Positions 26,231 through 34,753 of a stretch of 64,000 nucleotides of DNA are shown here, piece by piece. Both the position numbers and the translations under genes were made by a program. The notes under the pieces were generated by a model, which saw nothing but the letters and a program-made list of their open reading frames with translations, was not told the DNA's origin and did no database searches. Source of the stretch: Afipia clevelandensis ATCC 49720 (lineage in GTDB: Bacteria > Pseudomonadota > Alphaproteobacteria > Rhizobiales > Xanthobacteraceae). Every line of letters begins with the position of its first letter. Within the stretch, counting starts at the first letter, position 1. The stretch is taken from the NCBI RefSeq assembly GCF_000336555.1, contig NZ_KB375281.1, positions 310,001-374,000 of the forward strand, read 5' to 3'.

Positions 26231-27334
26231 TCAGGCTGACTCGATCTGGGCGGCGTCCTGCCGCATCCGGTAGAAGCGAAGGACCTGCTGCGCCGTGGAC
26301 GGGCGGAGCATGTCGTAGCTCGACTTGTGCTCTTCGATGTTTTCGGTGTCCGGCGCGCCGCCTCTCAATTCAAGGATCAGCTTGAGCGAGGGCCACGACA
26401 GTCCTGCAACCTTGGCGAGGACCATCAATCCTTCGGATTTGGCTTCGATCATCATGCTCTCGACCGTTGCGACCGGCACATTCGTACAGATTGCAAGGGC
26501 GGCACTCGTTTCCCCGAACCGCTTGGCTGCGGCGAATTCGGCGATCTGCTTTTCGTCGAGGCGGCCGTCGTCGAAGAGAGACTTCACGAGATTCTGGGCG
26601 TTCGCGGATACTTCACCGCTTGCCCTCTCTTCGACGGTGAGCGCTGCCTGTTCGACGGCTGCTGAAACATCGTCCGCGTGTTCCGGATTGGCGGCCTGAA
26701 GGCGCTCCCGGACCGAGTCGGAGGCCCGTGCAATCAGCTTCAGATAATGCGGCTTTGGAATCCCCCGCCGCATGCCGAGGCATGTCGCAAGGTTGTCGTT
26801 GCCTTCGGCGCGCGAGACCAGCCGGGTGAATCCATCATCCGAGAATTCCGCGCCGGGATTGTTCACGGCGCTTTCGACGACCTCATTGTTGCCGCGCTCG
26901 ACAAGCACGTCGGTGACGGCGTTGCTCAACACCTTGCGCTTTGAAATCGCGAGCAGATGCCCCTGGCTCTTGCAGCGGGCATTTTCAATCAGCATCTCGT
27001 CGTTCAGCCGTTCCGATTGCGACAGTACCGGCGCCGCCACCTCGATCTCGTCGTCGAACGCCAGGGTGTAGATCAGGCGCGGCGGGGCTTTCGGCACGGG
27101 CGCAAGACGGTTCGCCAGCAGCGACTTTGCCGAGACTTCGATTTCCTCGATCAGGCAATGAAAAACGTCGTCAAAAACGTTGATCTGTTCGTTGGTGTAG
27201 TCGGCCACACCATACATGAAAAGATCCGTCACCCGCCGCAGGGTCTCAACGCGGCGTGCAACCGTGCCGTGAGCAAGGGCATCCTGCAGTTCGGCAAGAA
27301 GGTTGGCGGGCCGTGCGGTCGATCTCGAATTCAT
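26231..27334 (-). CDS. DUF2336 domain protein
   Basis: A 367-residue cytoplasmic all-helical protein of the DUF2336 family, common in Rhizobiales and with no established function. The N-terminal RRVTDLFMYGVADYTNEQINVFDDVF matches the family opening. A second part (RLVSRAEGNDNLATCLGMRRGIP) shows the repeated-helix pattern seen in relatives. The N-terminal 60 residues align by eye with the protein at 60912-61886, so there are two paralogues in this window. The ATG at 27334 is used because family sequence starts there. It is followed upstream by a diguanylate cyclase gene on the same strand with about 60 bp between, so co-expression is likely. Confidence 0.8.
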   Translation of the reverse strand: MNSRSTARPANLLAELQDALAHGTVARRVETLRRVTDLFMYGVADYTNEQINVFDDVFHCLIEEIEVSAKSLLANRLAPVPKAPPRLIYTLAFDDEIEVAAPVLSQSERLNDEMLIENARCKSQGHLLAISKRKVLSNAVTDVLVERGNNEVVESAVNNPGAEFSDDGFTRLVSRAEGNDNLATCLGMRRGIPKPHYLKLIARASDSVRERLQAANPEHADDVSAAVEQAALTVEERASGEVSANAQNLVKSLFDDGRLDEKQIAEFAAAKRFGETSAALAICTNVPVATVESMMIEAKSEGLMVLAKVAGLSWPSLKLILELRGGAPDTENIEEHKSSYDMLRPSTAQQVLRFYRMRQDAAQIESA

Positions 27335-27393
27335 GACTTCTGTCCTGGAAAACACACGATGCCGGCCACGTTCTTGGCCGGCGAAAATTATCA

Positions 27394-28554
27394 TCAGGCG
27401 GTGACGACCCGGTTCCGTCCCATGTCCTTGGCCTGATAGAGGAGCTTGTCGGCGCGTGCGAGAATGCTGTCCGCGGAGTCGTCCGGGCGCAGCATGGCGA
27501 GCCCGGCCGACATCGTAACGGTCATGTCCTGTGAAATCGCGCTCCAGTCGAGCCCTGCCACGATGGTGCGCAGCCGGTCGATGGCGCGCAGCGCAGCGCC
27601 GTCCGATGTCTCGGGCAGGATCAGCAGGAATTCCTCTCCGCCGTAGCGGCCGAACTTGTCGATGCTGCGGATGTTGGCGAACACCGTGATGGCAAACGCC
27701 CGCAAGGCTTCATCGCCTGCCGGGTGGCCGAAACGGTCGTTGATCAGCTTGAACCAGTCGAGGTCGATCAGGGCGATGGCACAGGGGACGTTGCTGCGCC
27801 GGGCGCGTGCGATTTCCTGATCCAGGGTTTGCATGATGCTGCGGCGATTCATCGCCCCCGTGAGTTCGTCGAGTTCCGCGAGCTCCTCGATGCGCTGATA
27901 GGCTTTTTTCAGCTCGATTCCGCGCTTGTAGAGCGATTCATGAAGCGAACTGCTGAACAGCCCGACGATCATCCCGCGCCCGAGCACCAGAATGAAAACC
28001 AGCAAGGTCGCGAAACGCTCGAGCGGCGTGCCGGTGGGCATGCTGATCGGCTTGTCGGTCAAAAGGAACAGAATGGTCAGGCCGGCAGCCGCAGTCGTCC
28101 ATCCGATGATGGTCTGGCGCGGTGAGGAGCGCAGGGCGCCGAATGTGTAGACAAGGAAAATCGAGCAGAGGAACAGGCCGCCCACTTCCGGTGCGAAGTA
28201 GATGAAGGCCAGCATGATCGCCAGGCTGACGCTGGTTTGCTGCAGGATGAAGTAATGATCCCGAAACCGGTCGTTGATCCGGGCCTCGGAGATGGCGATG
28301 AAGATGGCGACGGACAGCAGCCCGCAGGCGGCGTAGGCGGGTGCGACGGCGAAGCTGGTGCTGCCTGCATAGGCGTAGATCAGCAGGATCGCGGCGTCGA
28401 TCATGTAGCTGACGCCGGTCATGTCGAGCAGTTGTCGCCGCTGCCGTGCGCGGCGAGCCAGAATTTCCGGTGGCAATTCGCCCTCAACGGCCGAATGCTT
28501 CCAGTTAAAGCGGCCTGACAGGGATACAGGGGCCGATGACATGACGCCGCGCAT
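27394..28554 (-). CDS. Membrane-bound diguanylate cyclase (GGDEF)
   Basis: A 386-residue protein that should make cyclic di-GMP from two GTP. The N-terminal half has five or six hydrophobic segments (about residues 45-205), a membrane sensor of unknown type, followed by a coiled-coil linker (KKAYQRIEELAELDELTG). The GGDEF domain has the active motif GGEEF (305-309) and, exactly five residues before it, the inhibitory I-site RSID (296-299), so product inhibition is expected. There is no EAL domain. The start is uncertain: ATG codons at 28554 and 28542 and a TTG at 28578 are in frame, and I use 28554 for the GGCGAG upstream. It is divergent from an ECF sigma gene. Confidence 0.87.
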   Translation of the reverse strand: MRGVMSSAPVSLSGRFNWKHSAVEGELPPEILARRARQRRQLLDMTGVSYMIDAAILLIYAYAGSTSFAVAPAYAACGLLSVAIFIAISEARINDRFRDHYFILQQTSVSLAIMLAFIYFAPEVGGLFLCSIFLVYTFGALRSSPRQTIIGWTTAAAGLTILFLLTDKPISMPTGTPLERFATLLVFILVLGRGMIVGLFSSSLHESLYKRGIELKKAYQRIEELAELDELTGAMNRRSIMQTLDQEIARARRSNVPCAIALIDLDWFKLINDRFGHPAGDEALRAFAITVFANIRSIDKFGRYGGEEFLLILPETSDGAALRAIDRLRTIVAGLDWSAISQDMTVTMSAGLAMLRPDDSADSILARADKLLYQAKDMGRNRVVTA

Positions 28555-28610
28555 GAACTCGCCGATGAGGGAATGCAATGCGGGACTGTAGGGGGCAAAG
28601 CCTTTAGGTT

Positions 28611-28707: not shown

Positions 28708-28860
28708 TATTCGTCATGGAAGCCGGGCGACTTGCCCTTGTTCATGATTCAGGGGCATTTTGCGCTCCTCACTCCGGACAATTCGGGAAATCGCGAAGAT
28801 TTTTACCGATTTGATCGAACCCCTTTCCTGTCGCGTGCGACCAACCTTGCGAGACGGCCA

Positions 28861-29430
28861 TTGAGTGCAACCCACGCGACATCAGATGAAGTTCTGATCG
28901 GTCGCATCGCCCAAGGTGACCGCCTCGCCATGCAGGTGCTTTACGGAAGGCACCATGTACGGGTGTTTCGCTTCTCGCTGCGCCTCGTGAAGAACGAGGC
29001 CATCGCGGAAGACCTTATCAGCGAGGTTTTCCTCGATGTGTGGCGGCAGGCCGGCAAGTTTGAAGGCCGGTCCACAGTCTCTACGTGGCTTTTGGCGATC
29101 ACGAGGTTCAAGGCCCTGTCCGCCCTCCGCAAGAGGAAGGACGCGGAACTGGATGACGAAGCGGCTGCGGCGATCGAGGATACGTCCGACAATCCCGAAG
29201 TTGCCGTCGCCAAGATGGATACAAGCAACGCTTTGCGGAATTGCCTGACCGCACTTTCGCCAGAGCATCGGGAGATTGTCGATCTCGTCTACTACCACGA
29301 GAAGTCCGTGGAGGAGGTGGCCGAAATCGTGGGTATCCCGGAGAACACGGTGAAGACGCGCCTGTTTTATGCGCGAAAGAAACTGGCCGAACTGCTCAAG
29401 GCAGCCGGCATTGAACGAGGTTGGCCATGA
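28861..29430 (+). CDS. ECF sigma factor of the subtilase cluster
   Basis: A 189-residue ECF sigma factor. Region 2 contains AEDLISEVFLDVWRQAGKFEG and STVSTWLLAITRFKALSALRKRKD. Region 4 is LTALSPEHREIVDLVYYHEKSVEEVAEIVGIPENTVKTRLFYARKKL, with a clear helix-turn-helix. I start at the TTG at 28861 because it is 10-12 residues before region 2, as usual. An ATG at 28744 would add 39 residues without sigma-like sequence. The stop overlaps the ATG of the anti-sigma gene (ATGA), a typical sigma/anti-sigma arrangement. The next three genes encode a secreted protease, an OmpA-like protein and a dihaem protein, its likely regulon. Confidence 0.83.
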   Translation: MSATHATSDEVLIGRIAQGDRLAMQVLYGRHHVRVFRFSLRLVKNEAIAEDLISEVFLDVWRQAGKFEGRSTVSTWLLAITRFKALSALRKRKDAELDDEAAAAIEDTSDNPEVAVAKMDTSNALRNCLTALSPEHREIVDLVYYHEKSVEEVAEIVGIPENTVKTRLFYARKKLAELLKAAGIERGWP

Positions 29431-30113
29431 CCCCCGCGAGCAACACTGCCATGAGTGAGCAACCCGACCGCGAGCCGACGGAAATCGAGGCTCTGCTGCC
29501 GTTCCATGCCGCGGGCACGCTGAACCTGCGCGACGCCCGGCGTGTCGACGAGGCGCTGGCGAGCAATCCCGATCTGGCGCGGCAATATGCCGTGATCCAG
29601 GACGAATATGCTGAAACTATCCTGTTGAACGAAAGCCTCGGCGCTCCCTCGGCGCGCGCGATGCAGAAGCTGTTCGCCGCCATTGATGCGGAGCCCGCGC
29701 GGACAAGCACCTCCTTTAATCCGCTGATGCGGATCGCCGGGTTCTTCTCCAGCCTGTCGCCGCGCACGCTGGCTTATGCGGGCGTGGCCGGCGCAGTGCT
29801 GGTTCTGTTGCAGGCCGGCGTGATCGGCACCGTCCTGGTGAAGGATCGTGCCCCGGGTAACTTCCAGACGGCGGCGTTTCCGGCGCAGTCGACGGCGGGA
29901 ACCTTCGGCCTGATCCGCTTTGCGCCCGACGCCAAGGCTGACGACATCACCCAGTTGCTGCACACGTACAACGCCTCCATCGTTTCGGGGCCGAAGTCCG
30001 GTGTGTTCCGCGTCCGGTTCGGCGACAAGGCCTTGTCGAAAGAGGAGGCGGCACAACTCATGACGCGGCTGCAAGGCGAGAAGATCGTCAGCCTTGTGGT
30101 GAGCACGGACTGA
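29427..30113 (+). CDS. Single-span anti-sigma factor with a protease-prodomain-like periplasmic domain
   Basis: A 228-residue protein. The cytoplasmic part (1-105) resembles anti-sigma domains: ALLPFHAAGTLNLRDARRVDEAL and the following helices. No zinc motif (HxxxCxxC) is present. One membrane helix spans about 116-138. The periplasmic part (about 158-228) follows a strand-helix-strand-strand-helix-strand order with GLIRFAP, DDITQLLHTY, ASIVSG, GVFRVRF, SKEEAAQLMTRL and VSLVVS. This is the layout of inhibitor-I9-like prodomains of subtilisins and of residues 130-206 of the next gene's product. I infer that this domain is recognised by that protease. The ATG at 29427 overlaps the sigma stop. 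Confidence 0.75.
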   Translation: MTPASNTAMSEQPDREPTEIEALLPFHAAGTLNLRDARRVDEALASNPDLARQYAVIQDEYAETILLNESLGAPSARAMQKLFAAIDAEPARTSTSFNPLMRIAGFFSSLSPRTLAYAGVAGAVLVLLQAGVIGTVLVKDRAPGNFQTAAFPAQSTAGTFGLIRFAPDAKADDITQLLHTYNASIVSGPKSGVFRVRFGDKALSKEEAAQLMTRLQGEKIVSLVVSTD

Positions 30114-30204
30114 TCGCCGTTTCGCATCGGCGGCAGGCGATGCGATCGGCTTTTGGATGACACGACTGGGCGCGTTGGCGCTGCTCCGGATTTACGAGGA
30201 CGTG

Positions 30205-31719
30205 ATGATCGAGACAGCCCCTGGAAAACGATCCTTCATCCGGACGCGGAGTGCCGGACGCCGGCTGCAACTGGTTGTTGTCGCCGCGGCAGCGGTGATG
30301 CTGGCTGCTCCTGAGGCATTCGCGCAATACAGCAGCATGAACATGCGCACCGGCCCGAGCATCAATGTCGGGCCGCGCATCAATATCAATCCGACGATAC
30401 GGCCCCATATCGGATATGACGGCTATGATCGCGTCCGACCGCGGCCCCGGCCATACATCGTACGCCAGTATGATGACGGCCCGCCGGCAGAATATTACGA
30501 CGAGCCGCCGCCGAAATTCCGCAAGAAGCAGCCAAGCAAAAACGCCGGAAAGAAGTCCGGCCCGGTTGCCGCCGAGAATACGTATGTCGCGAAGGAAGTG
30601 CTGATCGAGGTCGCGGGCAATCCAACCGACGCTCAGGCTGACGAGCTTGCGCGGCGGCACCGTTTGACCCGTGTCCAGTCCCAGAATTTTGCCCTGACCA
30701 ACAGCACATTCTTCCGCTGGCGGATCAATGACAAACGCTCCGTTGACGCGGTGGTGCGTGAGCTTGTTGCGAGCGGCAACGTCAAGGCCGCGCAGCGCAA
30801 CAACATCTTCAAACTTCAGCAGGGCGCTTCGTCCGCGGCTGCAAAATCCGAAGGCGATCCGCTGCAATATGCGCTCGGCAAGATGCGGCTTCCGGAGGCG
30901 CATGCGCTGTCGGTCGGCGCGGATGTGACGGTCGCCGTGATCGATTCCGGAATCGATGTCACCCATCCCGAACTGGCGGGCGTGATCACCGGCACCTTCG
31001 ACGCTTTGAACAATGGCGAAGGGCCGCATCCTCATGGCACCAGCATCGCCGGCGTGATCGCGGCCCATGCCCGGCTGATGGGGACAGCGCCGTCGTCTCA
31101 CCTGCTGGCTATCCGCGCATTCGGCGCGCAAAAGGGCGGCGCGGAAAGCACCTCGTTCCTGATCCTGAAAAGCCTCGACTACGCGCTCGCAAAGAACGCG
31201 CAGATCATCAATATGAGTTTTGCGGGACCGCACGACCCGGCGATCGAGCGCGGACTCGCCGTTGCCGCCGCCAAGGGCGTCGTCCTGGTCGCGGCTGCGG
31301 GGAATGCCGGTGCGAAATCACCGCCGCTTTATCCCGCCGCGGACACCAATGTCATCGCCGTATCGGCCACCGATCAGTCGGATCAATTGTTCGCCCAGTC
31401 GAACCGCGGCAAGTATGTCGCGATCTCCGCGCCGGGCGTGGACATTCTGTCGCCCGCGCCGGATGGCAAATATCAGATGTCGTCGGGGACTTCGCTGTCG
31501 GCCGCCTATGTCAGCGGCGTGATTGCCCTCATGATCGCACGTAATCCGCAGATGTCGTCATCCGACATTCGCGCGACACTGACATCAACCGCGCGCGATC
31601 TGGGACCGAAGGGCCGTGACGACCAATTCGGAGCCGGGCAGGCAGATGCCTTCGGCGCGGTTTCAGCCGTCGTGCCCGCACCGGTGGCGGCGGCTTCCGA
31701 TGATTCATCCAAGCGATAA
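30205..31719 (+). CDS. Secreted subtilisin-like serine protease (S8 family)
   Basis: A 504-residue S8 protease. The signal peptide is in residues 1-40 (VVVAAAAVMLAAPEAFAQ). Next comes a Pro/Arg/Tyr-rich segment, then a prodomain of the I9/fervidolysin type (about 130-206) and the catalytic domain. The triad is complete: Asp247 in VAVIDSGIDVTHPEL, His277 in HPHGTSIAGV, Ser430 in SSGTSLSAA, with oxyanion Asn367 in AAAGNAGA. It should act in the periplasm or outside the cell. I choose the ATG at 30205, with GAGG before it, over 30157. It lies in the operon after the anti-sigma gene, whose periplasmic domain looks like this prodomain. Regulated cleavage is plausible. Confidence 0.9.
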   Translation: MIETAPGKRSFIRTRSAGRRLQLVVVAAAAVMLAAPEAFAQYSSMNMRTGPSINVGPRININPTIRPHIGYDGYDRVRPRPRPYIVRQYDDGPPAEYYDEPPPKFRKKQPSKNAGKKSGPVAAENTYVAKEVLIEVAGNPTDAQADELARRHRLTRVQSQNFALTNSTFFRWRINDKRSVDAVVRELVASGNVKAAQRNNIFKLQQGASSAAAKSEGDPLQYALGKMRLPEAHALSVGADVTVAVIDSGIDVTHPELAGVITGTFDALNNGEGPHPHGTSIAGVIAAHARLMGTAPSSHLLAIRAFGAQKGGAESTSFLILKSLDYALAKNAQIINMSFAGPHDPAIERGLAVAAAKGVVLVAAAGNAGAKSPPLYPAADTNVIAVSATDQSDQLFAQSNRGKYVAISAPGVDILSPAPDGKYQMSSGTSLSAAYVSGVIALMIARNPQMSSSDIRATLTSTARDLGPKGRDDQFGAGQADAFGAVSAVVPAPVAAASDDSSKR

Positions 31720-31762
31720 CAAGAGCAGGCGCCTGTCGGCGATTGCTGAACGGAAATTTTCA

Positions 31763-32380
31763 ATGAAACGCATATGGGCCACGGCGGCCGTATGGGTGCT
31801 GTCCTCCGGTTTGCTCCATGCGCAGTCTCTTGAGGACAAGATCGGATCAGCGCTTCAGGCCAGTCAGCCGCTGACGCGCAGCCTGTCCGTGACGTCCGAT
31901 CCCAAGGTGGATGCAGAAAAGCAGGTCATCAAGCGCCTGCAGGTGCGATCCATCAGTGTCGAACTCGCTTCGCCGCCTGACGCCGAAGAACGTGCGCGGA
32001 TCGTCGAGATCACGCGCGACAAGCCTGCCATCGACCTGGAAATCCTGTTTGAATATAATTCGGCGGAGATCAGCCCGAAGGCCGTTCCTGCTCTTGTCGC
32101 GCTTGGCAACGCGCTGTCGCGGCAGGACCTGAAGGGCTCGGTCTTCCTCATCAACGGACATACCGATGCAGCGGGAAGCGCGGACTACAACCAAGCGCTC
32201 TCGCAGCGCCGCGCCAATGCGGTGCGCCGCATGTTGATCGAACACTACAAACTTGCACCGGACACACTGATCGCGGTGGGCTTCGGCAAGGAGCAGTTGA
32301 AGACCCCGGCCAGACCACTGGGCGAGGAAAATCGCCGCGTGCAGATCGTGAACACCACCGTGCGGGCAACGGGACAATGA
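31763..32380 (+). CDS. OmpA-family peptidoglycan-binding protein
   Basis: A 205-residue exported protein. Residues 1-21 are a signal peptide (WATAAVWVLSSGLLHAQ). The C-terminal half is an OmpA-like domain: IDLEILFEYNSAEISPKAV, then NGHTDAAGSADYNQALSQRR with the Asp and Arg that bind diaminopimelate in peptidoglycan. The N-terminal 70 residues after the signal are not a beta-barrel, so it is likely periplasmic or a peripheral protein attached to the cell wall. It lies 43 bp after the protease gene and about 80 bp before the dihaem gene, in the same direction. Confidence 0.88.
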   Translation: MKRIWATAAVWVLSSGLLHAQSLEDKIGSALQASQPLTRSLSVTSDPKVDAEKQVIKRLQVRSISVELASPPDAEERARIVEITRDKPAIDLEILFEYNSAEISPKAVPALVALGNALSRQDLKGSVFLINGHTDAAGSADYNQALSQRRANAVRRMLIEHYKLAPDTLIAVGFGKEQLKTPARPLGEENRRVQIVNTTVRATGQ

Positions 32381-32461
32381 CCCTCTGAACCCGTCCGGCA
32401 TTCAAAGCGACCAATTTCCGGCGTCGATCGCCACATAGATCGTTTCAAGGGGACATGTTCA

Positions 32462-34753
32462 ATGAGCGGATTTCCGGCAATGGCCTTGCGGGCATTCGGC
32501 ATCGCGATAGCAACTGGTCTTGTCGTTGGCGCTGCCGGACTTTCCCTTGCTCAGGAAGCCAAGGCGCCGGTTTCCGCTTCGGCGGACGCAATCGCGCCGC
32601 CCACAGATCCGGTCGCCAGGGCTGCGTTCGATGTGCTCGACGCACACTGCGCGCGCTGCCATCAGACCGGCAAGCTGGTGGACCGCGAACGCCCGGCGAA
32701 AAATTTCGGAAACATCCTCAAGCTGGACGAGATCGCCGCCAATCCGCATTACATCCTGCCGGGCAATCCGCTGGGGTCGAAACTGTTCCGGCAGATCGTC
32801 GACAAGGAGATGCCTTACGACATCTACTACGAAGGCTCGTCGCACAAGCCGCCATCCGAAGCCGATCTCAAGGCGCTTGAGGCCTGGGTCAGCGCGCTGG
32901 GAACCAAGGCTGTCGCCAGTTGCGAAACCCACAAGTTCATCACGCCCGACGACATGGTGTCGTTCATGGTCGCCGATCTCGAGAAGCAGCGGCCGCAACG
33001 CAGGGGGACGACGCGCTATCTGACTCTGACCCATCTCACCAATATCTGCGCCGATCCGGCTGCGATGAAGGTCTATCAGCAGGGCGCGGTGAAGTTTCTC
33101 AATTCACTCAGCCGCTCCTCCGATGTGGTGAAGCTCGAAACCGTTGATCCGGAGGGTAGCATCCTGCGCTTCAACCTTCTCGATCTCGGCTGGAAGCCGG
33201 CGGACTGGGACAATGTGATCGCGGTCTATCCCTACAACGCGGTGCCGGACACAGAATTCAGCCGTGCGCTCGCCTCGGGCGCCGCGACCGCAATTCCCTA
33301 TGTGCGCGCTGACTGGTTCGTGTTCACCGCGTCGCAACCGCCGCTCTATGACGTGTTGCTGCAACTGCCGAACACGTTCCAGCAGCTTGCGCGGGAACAG
33401 GGCGTCGATGTCGAAGCGAACATCCGCAACTTTGTCGCGCAGCGCGCCGCGTTCCAGCGCTCCGGCGTCAGCCAGAACAACCGGTTGATCGAGCGCCATC
33501 CCTCGCGCAACGGGTTTTTCTGGACGTCCTATGACTTCTCAGGCAACCGCGACCGTCAGAGCCTGTTCAGCTTCCCGCTGGGGCCGACCGGTCCGAATGC
33601 GTTTCATCATGATGGCGGCGAAACAATTTACAGCCTGCCGAACGGCTTTCAGGCCTACTATCTGAACACCGCGAAAGGTGACCGGCTCGACAAGGGGCCG
33701 ACCGCCATCGTGCGCGATCCGTCGCGGAAGGATTTCTCCGTGACCAACGGCATCTCGTGCATGGGCTGCCATGACCAGGGCATGCGCAAGGCCAAGGACG
33801 ATGTGCGCGAACTGGTGCTGCAGGGGCGGACATTCCCGAAGGATGTGCGCGATGCGGTGGAAGGTCTCTATCCGCCGCATGACAAGATGGACGCGCTGAT
33901 CGAGGACGATGCCAAGCGATTTGCCGATGCGATGAAGCGCGCCGGTCTCGATCCGGCGCTGAAGCTCAACGGTATCGAGATGATCAACGCGCTGGCCAAG
34001 CGCTATGAGGACGATCTCGATCTGACCCTCGCGGCTGCCGAACTCGGACTGAAGAAGTCCGAATTCAACGAAGGCGTGGCGGATGTCGAGCAGAAGTTCA
34101 AACCGCTGGTTCGCCGTCTGGCGCAGGGCGCGGTGCCGCGCGACCAGTTCGAGGTGTCGTTCCGCGGTGTGGCGCCGGATCTGACCGACCTGAAGCTCGT
34201 CAGCATCCGCAATGCGCGCCCGGTTCAACCCGTGCCGCAACAGGTCCGCAACAGTGACGATCTGTCTTTGACTTCGGATCGCGACAGTTACCGGCTTGGC
34301 GATACGCCGGTCTTCACCATCGTCTCGCCGCGCGACTGCTTCCTGACCCTGACCGACATCGACGAGCGTGGGGAAGGGACCGTGCTGCTGCCGAATGCCT
34401 TTCAGCGCGACAACTTCATTCGGGCCGGCGTGCCGGTCCAGTTCCCTGGCACAGGCGCGCCATTTCAGTTTCGGATGAAGGACAAGGGTACGGAGACCGT
34501 GACTGCTGTCTGCGCCACGCAAGCGAGTGGCGGAGATCGCATTCAGCACGACTTCAACAAGAACCAGTTCACGCCGGTCCCGAACTACACGCAGACGCTC
34601 GCACGCTCGATCGCGGTGGAGCCTGTCAGGCCGGGCACACCTGCGGTTGCGGGCACAACCAACACGGGCGCGGCCGCGGTCTCCAGCCGCGAGCCGCCGC
34701 CAGCGGGATCGCGAACGTCGCTTCGCGCCGCGATCAGGCTTCAGGTGCGTTAA
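32462..34753 (+). CDS. Exported dihaem c-type protein with C-terminal DUF4384 domain
   Basis: A 763-residue periplasmic protein. After a signal peptide (residues 1-30) there is a c-type haem motif, C63-AR-C66-H67, with a following LDEIAANPHYILPGNP. A second motif, C433-MG-C436-H437, lies in a domain that includes FHHDGGETIYSLPNGFQAYY. Residues about 600-690 match DUF4384 (FTIVSPRDCFLTLTDIDERG). The C-terminal tail is low-complexity. DUF4384 is usually found with caspase-like or kinase domains, so its pairing with two haem sites is unusual. The role is not known; redox sensing in the envelope would fit the neighbours. The ATG at 32462 follows AAGGGGAC. Confidence 0.82.
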   Translation: MSGFPAMALRAFGIAIATGLVVGAAGLSLAQEAKAPVSASADAIAPPTDPVARAAFDVLDAHCARCHQTGKLVDRERPAKNFGNILKLDEIAANPHYILPGNPLGSKLFRQIVDKEMPYDIYYEGSSHKPPSEADLKALEAWVSALGTKAVASCETHKFITPDDMVSFMVADLEKQRPQRRGTTRYLTLTHLTNICADPAAMKVYQQGAVKFLNSLSRSSDVVKLETVDPEGSILRFNLLDLGWKPADWDNVIAVYPYNAVPDTEFSRALASGAATAIPYVRADWFVFTASQPPLYDVLLQLPNTFQQLAREQGVDVEANIRNFVAQRAAFQRSGVSQNNRLIERHPSRNGFFWTSYDFSGNRDRQSLFSFPLGPTGPNAFHHDGGETIYSLPNGFQAYYLNTAKGDRLDKGPTAIVRDPSRKDFSVTNGISCMGCHDQGMRKAKDDVRELVLQGRTFPKDVRDAVEGLYPPHDKMDALIEDDAKRFADAMKRAGLDPALKLNGIEMINALAKRYEDDLDLTLAAAELGLKKSEFNEGVADVEQKFKPLVRRLAQGAVPRDQFEVSFRGVAPDLTDLKLVSIRNARPVQPVPQQVRNSDDLSLTSDRDSYRLGDTPVFTIVSPRDCFLTLTDIDERGEGTVLLPNAFQRDNFIRAGVPVQFPGTGAPFQFRMKDKGTETVTAVCATQASGGDRIQHDFNKNQFTPVPNYTQTLARSIAVEPVRPGTPAVAGTTNTGAAAVSSREPPPAGSRTSLRAAIRLQVR

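Follow-up and report, generated by a model that had tools for sequence, protein, structure and literature searches.

The gene cluster described here lies in a 64,000-nucleotide stretch of the Afipia clevelandensis ATCC 49720 genome (contig NZ_KB375281.1, positions 310,001 to 374,000; the window) and contains the genes of an extracytoplasmic function (ECF) sigma factor, a single-pass membrane anti-sigma and a secreted protease of the subtilisin-like family S8. Judged by profile comparison, the C-terminal periplasmic domain (CTD) of the anti-sigma is homologous to the prodomains of S8 proteases. It looks like a prodomain without the inhibitory, cleavable end, and many families of the phylum have S8 genes close to that of the anti-sigma. 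The sigma/anti-sigma switch may sense the S8 protease directly.

Relation of the periplasmic domain to S8 prodomains

When only the two window sequences were compared, the resemblance between CTD and S8 prodomain was borderline. BLASTP gave an E value of 0.023 in this single comparison, and among 2000 shuffles the local score was reached 138 times and the semi-global score 34 times. Profiles built from the family of the window organism alone gave a weak, non-significant profile-profile match (probability 13.5, P 0.0021). Other families were then searched with the CTD profile alone and both profiles were rebuilt, from 48 CTDs and 32 S8 prodomains. With these, hhalign returned a probability of 90, a P of 1.7e-6 and a score of 35.5 over 65 columns; the corresponding probability and P were 93.9 and 1.5e-7 with the query order swapped, and 81.3 and 1.2e-5 when locus L061 was left out on both sides. 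The resemblance pointed out by the initial annotation is thus marginal for the window pair and strong once distant relatives are included, and the four matched sequence pieces on which it was based sit in the register chosen by the profile-profile alignment.

None of 200 column shuffles scored as high (maximum 16.9 vs 35.5), the reversed alignment reached 15.3, and the best of 17 S8 catalytic-domain windows 15.9. Decoys from the genus, belonging to the ferredoxin-like domain families SPOR and HMA, scored in either order at most 11.6 and 16.7, respectively, the HMA match (P 0.0091) being the highest of the decoys. A new set of 19 CTDs, obtained in a later search and unused in the profile, aligned to the same prodomain columns with a P of 7.4e-5, compared to 0.37 for SPOR and 0.021 for HMA. 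On the shuffles, the reversal, the catalytic windows and the two decoy families, chance or a mere likeness of fold was rejected. Matches to PF22148 (Fervidolysin prodomain) at E ≤1 were obtained for 11 of the 48 CTDs, the best at 1.5e-6, and proteins of two relatives passed the Pfam cut-off of 21 (L126 with 24.7, L084 with 27.0). Two S8 proteins were hit by the CTD profile at their own prodomains, L363 at E 2.4e-6, with a prodomain that scores 44.9 bits for PF22148, and L137 at E 1.8e-5, with a sub-cut-off 18.1 bits. One evident chance match (L139, E 1.2e-4) fell on an enzyme that, from its sequence, we take to be SHMT-like.

Two other assignments were considered and abandoned. As a SPOR domain (PF05036) the window CTD scores 17.9 bits and the cut-off is 21; among 28 family CTDs, SPOR matches three and PF22148 only two. 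This reading was dropped since, with distant relatives included, PF22148 matches 11 and SPOR 2 of the 48 CTDs, and SPOR domains from the genus score no higher than background in hhalign. The CTD does not appear to be a recent copy of its own S8 prodomain either: in a joint tree all 48 CTDs were set apart, at a local support of 0.947, from the 32 prodomains, and the mean identity of a CTD to its own prodomain (0.160) was hardly higher than that to others (0.147; 18 loci). The simplest reading of these sequence comparisons would be a single old capture of a prodomain.

In the anti-sigma, one hydrophobic segment is followed by a linker of approximately 20 residues and a CTD of approximately 70 residues. 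With an anti-sigma domain, one transmembrane segment and a gene overlapping the ECF gene, the protein has the features of a membrane-bound class I anti-sigma, the domain match itself being weak (NCBIfam 'antisigma', E 1.2e-5, under cut-off). The zf-HC2 score is 17.4 bits, below the cut-off of 22.2, and the window protein has no Cys; several distant relatives score above the zf-HC2 cut-off. AlphaFold2 predicts a beta-alpha-beta-beta-alpha-beta fold, that of the S8 prodomain family, for the CTD (strand 12-18, helix 24-33, strands 36-43 and 46-51, helix 58-69, strand 74-80; mean predicted local distance difference test 81.8, predicted template modelling score 0.61). The S8 prodomain is modelled in the same way (strand 15-25, helix 30-39, strands 42-50 and 55-62, helix 68-78, strand 83-92), which bears out the common order strand-helix-strand-strand-helix-strand proposed by the initial annotation. 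Structure searches with the CTD model listed the S8 prodomains 3t41, 9fid, 1spb, 3whi and 1scj among their matches (9fid_D, in Foldseek, with a root-mean-square deviation of 2.0). The top Foldseek row was a chain of a mitochondrial ribosome, the best VIA-align Z was tied among many chains, and a search of the CTD profile against the sequences of solved structures gave two rows, both with E ≥1 and neither a protease. Structural models alone would not decide the relation between CTD and S8 prodomain.

The end of the domain is where the two families part. Aligned to the subtilisin prosegment (1spb_P 7-72), which has 77 residues, the CTD reaches its last residue at position 72, and a median of 5 residues (range 2-20) follows the last shared strand position in the CTDs. 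In the joint alignment both families often carry a Pro close to the domain end (18 of 32 prodomains, 25 of 48 CTDs). The Asn behind it is found in 30 of 32 prodomains, the other two having gaps, and in none of the 48 CTDs. Each of the six tail columns after this Asn is a gap in 28 to 46 of the 48 CTDs; at the aromatic position 31 CTDs lack a residue, and at the Leu position 40. The C-terminal tail leading to the processing site, characteristic of the S8 prodomain family, is accordingly missing from the CTD. In S8 prodomains this tail occupies the active site and is cut. Because the CTD stops where the inhibitory, cleavable tail would start, it is unlikely to be held and cut in the canonical manner. 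From the idea of the anti-sigma as a false prodomain, put forward in the initial annotation, the homology to S8 prodomains was retained and the canonical holding and cutting was not.

Conservation of the sigma, anti-sigma and S8 genes

Among 198 genomes of the family, the anti-sigma was matched in 129 and the S8 query in 132, some of the latter being other S8 genes. The gene context was followed in 80 named loci, the best 80 of 179 matching and hence the nearest relatives. Sigma, CTD and S8 genes occurred together in 78 of them. The two further genes of the window cluster were rare, the OmpA-like gene being present in 8 and the dihaem gene in 12 of the 80, and in 20 family loci picked for having S8 they were found in 4 and 7, respectively. 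The unit is therefore the triad of sigma, anti-sigma and S8, and the OmpA-like and dihaem genes are local additions. The initial annotation had proposed a survey for co-occurrence of all five genes and thought that the last two proteins could supply the signal or be the output: three of the genes do co-occur, the five do not belong together outside close relatives, and a place of the OmpA-like and dihaem proteins in the wiring was not upheld.

Outside the family, wide regions around 28 CTD-profile matches were analyzed (G460, G526, G544, G633 and G731 were omitted, their genera being already represented). Subtraction of the S8 protein L137 and the SHMT-like L139 left 26 CTD loci, of which 22 have S8 in the vicinity (two of the loci, L133 and L134, are copies from a single genome). 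In the other four (L129, L132, L138, L140) a caspase-family gene above the Pfam cut-off was found. When the class of G748 was searched as well, 22 matches were obtained, spread over 21 genomes. The 20 new ones among them were examined; one (L363) is an S8 protein. In three of the remaining 19 loci (L356, L361, L362) the contig stops next to the CTD gene, and the 16 evaluable ones comprise 11 with S8, one with a caspase-family gene (L364) and four with neither (L350, L351, L352 and L354, three of them from one family). In all, 33 of 42 evaluable distant loci have S8 nearby, five a caspase-family gene and four neither, so that the genomic tie between CTD and S8 genes extends to many families of the phylum. 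In 41 of these 42 loci a sigma-like gene accompanies the CTD; the protein of L132, where no such gene was found, is therefore an anti-sigma by resemblance only. As a background to these counts, the whole window genome (4.4 Mb, one contig; nearest named relatives in one scan, Afipia) has two S8 genes.

The S8 gene outside the family is mostly downstream, lies upstream of sigma in L147 and L148, and in L125 and L145 the CTD gene is oriented opposite to the genes around it. The CTD-S8 pair is thus kept while the gene order changes, which speaks for a functional link between the two genes. Covariation was analyzed with distances from 73 loci (of 89, near-duplicates removed), the sigma, the cytoplasmic domain of the anti-sigma and two neighbouring genes being partialled out. 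The distances of CTD and S8 prodomain correlated with a partial r of 0.45 (permutation p 0.001), whereas the prodomain controls gave 0.20 for the cytoplasmic domain and 0.02 and 0.06 for the two neighbour genes. As distance matrices share history, this covariation is only suggestive of a link.

The sigma gene is preceded by a promoter-like element, TCGAACC-N16-CGACC. It was found without mismatch in 68 of the 80 named loci, 78 of which had sufficient upstream sequence, and always at the same distance of 46 bases from the sigma start. No second exact copy occurs in the window, and genome-wide there are three exact matches, one of them at this locus. At up to one mismatch, 47 matches in the genome compare to 41 in the backward control, and no regulon could be named by means of the element. 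From its sequence and position it is a candidate autoregulatory ECF promoter, which would make the operon self-activating.

A possible link between protease state and sigma release

The gene next to the anti-sigma encodes an S8 peptidase with a D/H/S catalytic domain, a prodomain and an export signal predicted from hydropathy and sequence, and from the predicted topology it follows that CTD and protease would share the periplasmic compartment. The likeliest of the explanations, at a little short of even odds, is that the CTD binds the partner S8 and thereby links protease state to proteolysis of the anti-sigma; both binding and cleavage are putative. The ECF sigma would be held at the inner membrane by an anti-sigma that ends in a captured, tail-less S8 prodomain, and the partner S8 would be secreted to the same compartment with its own full prodomain. 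Once the protease had processed this prodomain, the CTD could dock on the vacated prodomain-binding face, where, without a tail, it would leave the active site open and act as a tether or receptor, not as the substrate itself. The cut in the short linker between membrane and CTD (approximately residues 141-160) would come from the S8 protease or from a site-1 protease that senses whether S8 is occupied, and a site-2 protease of the RseP kind would complete the cleavage and free the sigma. The freed sigma would then transcribe its own operon, S8 included. One M50 (RseP-type) site-2 protease gene is present in the genome. A more general version, in which such anti-sigmas are protease receptors that captured a prodomain once, lost its tail and now read the amount or state of a secreted S8 or caspase-like protease across Pseudomonadota, is put forward with greater reserve.

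Several observations weigh against this coupling and against the relation on which it is built. The window CTD itself has no match to PF22148 at E ≤1, and the fold searches place S8 prodomains beside many other ferredoxin-like chains, with no Foldseek E ≤0.001. The S8 catalytic domain covaries with the CTD (0.32, p 0.001) no better than with the cytoplasmic domain (0.39, p 0.001). Of 117 family loci, 16 have kept the CTD though S8 was not found in them; 14 of these come from a set of 20 loci picked mostly for lacking S8, and in one of them, L076, the contig ends just behind the anti-sigma and the presence of S8 cannot be judged. Nor is the CTD clearly relaxed in S8-less loci: the ratio of CTD to cytoplasmic-domain divergence in close pairs was 2.5-2.8 without S8 vs 2.0-2.1, and distant pairs showed no difference. 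Such persistence weighs against a CTD that serves S8 alone. Among the 42 evaluable distant loci, five lack S8 and have a caspase-family gene, and four have neither; I9-type domains are not known to act on caspases. The upstream element is retained in several S8-less family loci. In one of the family loci without S8, L069, a caspase-TPR gene adjoins the anti-sigma; a search with three caspase-family sequences found no such gene in the other S8-less family loci, and no protease was noticed among the open reading frames listed for them. Both an S8 and a caspase-family gene are present in L046 and L179, whose contigs are equally long.

The loci in which S8 was not found would fit a system where the protease serves solely as an output of the sigma and the prodomain-derived CTD now senses something else, e.g. 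unfolded or peptide ligands: the CTD and the upstream element persist in such loci, and five distant ones have a caspase-family gene instead. That CTD and S8 prodomain diverge in parallel more closely than the controls, that the pair stays linked though gene order varies, and that an S8 or caspase-family gene lies near 38 of the 42 evaluable distant CTDs make this explanation rather doubtful. The CTD could also be an inhibitor in trans, which would replace the released prodomain and keep the mature S8 silent at the membrane until envelope damage titrates it off. It is homologous to inhibitory prodomains, and free-standing subtilisin inhibitors exist: POIA1, which resembles prodomains, was among the structure matches in its complex with subtilisin (1v5i). 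The CTD, however, lacks the tail with which prodomains fill the active site, a median of 5 residues being left and the Asn, aromatic and Leu positions gone, so that we regard inhibition in trans as unlikely. A precedent for a partner protein that restrains an S8 protease is PopD of Myxococcus xanthus, which, according to the excerpted text of PMC6434023, complexes PopC, inhibits its secretion and holds it back until a stress signal; a link of this pair to a sigma factor was not seen in that text.

Much less probable is a CTD that binds the free prodomain or assists S8 folding, and so reports protease maturation without contacting the mature enzyme. It would agree with CTD divergence being more strongly correlated to that of the prodomain (0.45) than to that of the catalytic domain (0.32), but correlation is not contact, and we know of no precedent for prodomain-prodomain pairing, which counts against it. 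Hardly credible, finally, is a chance match in which CTD and prodomain share the common ferredoxin-like fold and no descent. The similar scores of many unrelated ferredoxin-like chains in the structure search, the borderline window pair and the SHMT-like hit of the CTD profile (E 1.2e-4) speak for it; they are countered by SPOR and HMA staying near the shuffle background when compared with the CTD, by the Pfam cut-off passed in two relatives, by the two S8 prodomains matched and by the replication with new sequences.

One of the closest known systems is the regulated proteolysis of anti-sigma factors of the RseA/DegS/RseP type; PMC8103513 describes the RseA pathway. Common to both are a single-pass anti-sigma with a periplasmic domain and an M50 site-2 protease in the genome. 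Unlike in the RseA system, the linked protease here is a secreted S8 subtilase, the periplasmic domain is by profile comparison a homologue of its prodomain, and proteolysis is putative. With S8 prodomains (Fervidolysin_NPro-like PF22148, Inhibitor I9) the CTD shares fold and register, and in sequence profile it resembles them once distant relatives are included; it differs in that it ends a membrane anti-sigma, lacks the C-terminal tail with its Asn and is separate in the tree. PopC/PopD shares with the present system an S8 protease and a partner protein. ECF54 sigma factors have, in the excerpted text of PMC8999054, subtilase and CHAT (caspase-like) domains in their conserved context and no anti-sigma; they are similar in their subtilase or caspase-like neighbours and differ in that the link here would be an anti-sigma with a prodomain-like domain. 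In an open-access literature search, no paper came up that describes an S8 prodomain-like domain in an anti-sigma; the main ECF reclassification lay outside this search, so that absence in print does not follow.

In many ECF systems neither the periplasmic signal nor the site-1 protease is known. Both are indicated here by the sequence, through a periplasmic domain derived from a prodomain and a protease encoded nearby, which stay linked across many families of the phylum, and signal sensing would become directly testable. Should the docking hold true, protease maturation or occupancy would become a transcription signal through ECF release, and a protease inhibitor domain would have been turned into a signalling receptor.

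Coordinates and neighbouring genes

The five genes listed by the initial annotation were confirmed, all on the plus strand of 28861-34753. The S8 gene, described there as next-but-one, is so when counted from the sigma gene and directly adjoins that of the anti-sigma. Further ATG codons are found at 29427 in the anti-sigma gene and, in frame, at 30205 in the S8 gene. The S8 protein starts with an N-terminal hydrophobic, signal-like segment, followed by a low-complexity region, the prodomain and the catalytic domain. Its prodomain scored 19.5 bits for PF22148 (cut-off 21) in the whole-protein scan and 23.1 in the genome scan, and the model of residues 129-520 resembles unprocessed pro-subtilisin E (3whi; TM-score 0.84-0.85 over the target).

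Table 1. Features of the window cluster and caspase-family genes at other loci (window positions, or locus:positions)
Feature	Position	Strand	Basis or remark
Conserved promoter-like element TCGAACC-N16-CGACC	28815-28842	+	Starts 46 bases before sigma start
ECF sigma factor, PRK12515-like, TTG start	28861-29430	+	NF009168 342.1 bits (cut-off 236); Sigma70_r2 and Sigma70_r4_2 above cut-off
Anti-sigma, one transmembrane segment	29421-30113	+	Overlaps sigma stop; zf-HC2 and NCBIfam 'antisigma' both sub-cut-off
Anti-sigma transmembrane segment, residues 122-140	29784-29840	+	Top 19-residue hydropathy, 2.36
Anti-sigma periplasmic domain (CTD), residues 161-230, putative tail-less S8 prodomain homologue	29901-30110	+	Profile comparison, AlphaFold2
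Secreted S8 protease	30157-31719	+	PF00082 158.3 bits; motifs VIDSGID, HPHGTS, SGTS
S8 prodomain	30580-30822	+	PF22148 (near cut-off), AlphaFold2
S8 catalytic domain	30916-31638	+	PF00082; D/H/S motifs present
OmpA-like protein, local accessory	31763-32380	+	PF00691 74.2 bits
Protein with two CxxCH haem motifs (residues 63, 433) and DUF4384, local accessory	32462-34753	+	DUF4384 63.5 bits
Caspase-family (PF00656) gene near CTD anti-sigma-like gene, no S8	L069:1898-3814		Above Pfam cut-off
Caspase-family (PF00656) gene near CTD anti-sigma-like gene, no S8	L129:3-904		Above Pfam cut-off
Caspase-family (PF00656) gene near CTD anti-sigma-like gene, no S8	L132:4225-6240		Above Pfam cut-off
Caspase-family (PF00656) gene near CTD anti-sigma-like gene, no S8	L138:653-2383		Above Pfam cut-off
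Caspase-family (PF00656) gene near CTD anti-sigma-like gene, no S8	L140:3156-3959		Above Pfam cut-off
Caspase-family (PF00656) gene near CTD anti-sigma-like gene, no S8	L364:5219-6610		Above Pfam cut-off

A weak, sub-cut-off match to the DUF4384 of the dihaem protein (18.3 bits) was also noted in the caspase-family protein of L132 (L132:4225-6240). Near the anti-sigma genes of L129 and L138 a second small protein is encoded (L129:2405-2818 and L138:3911-4582), with a hydrophobic segment and a CTD-like domain and seemingly without an anti-sigma part. The module of L072 (G043) appears to be decaying: its S8 gene is spread over several frames, only a sigma fragment was matched, and the anti-sigma frame is still open. 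On the minus strand before the cluster (window 26231-28578) lie a GGDEF-like gene, named from its sequence, and a DUF2336 gene, with matches in 101 and 102 of 120 family loci, respectively. The cluster is followed, also on the minus strand, by the gene of a right-handed beta-helix protein (PF13229; 35203-36570), and in L162, L188 and L196 the triad is followed by genes whose products have an N-terminus similar to that of this beta-helix protein.

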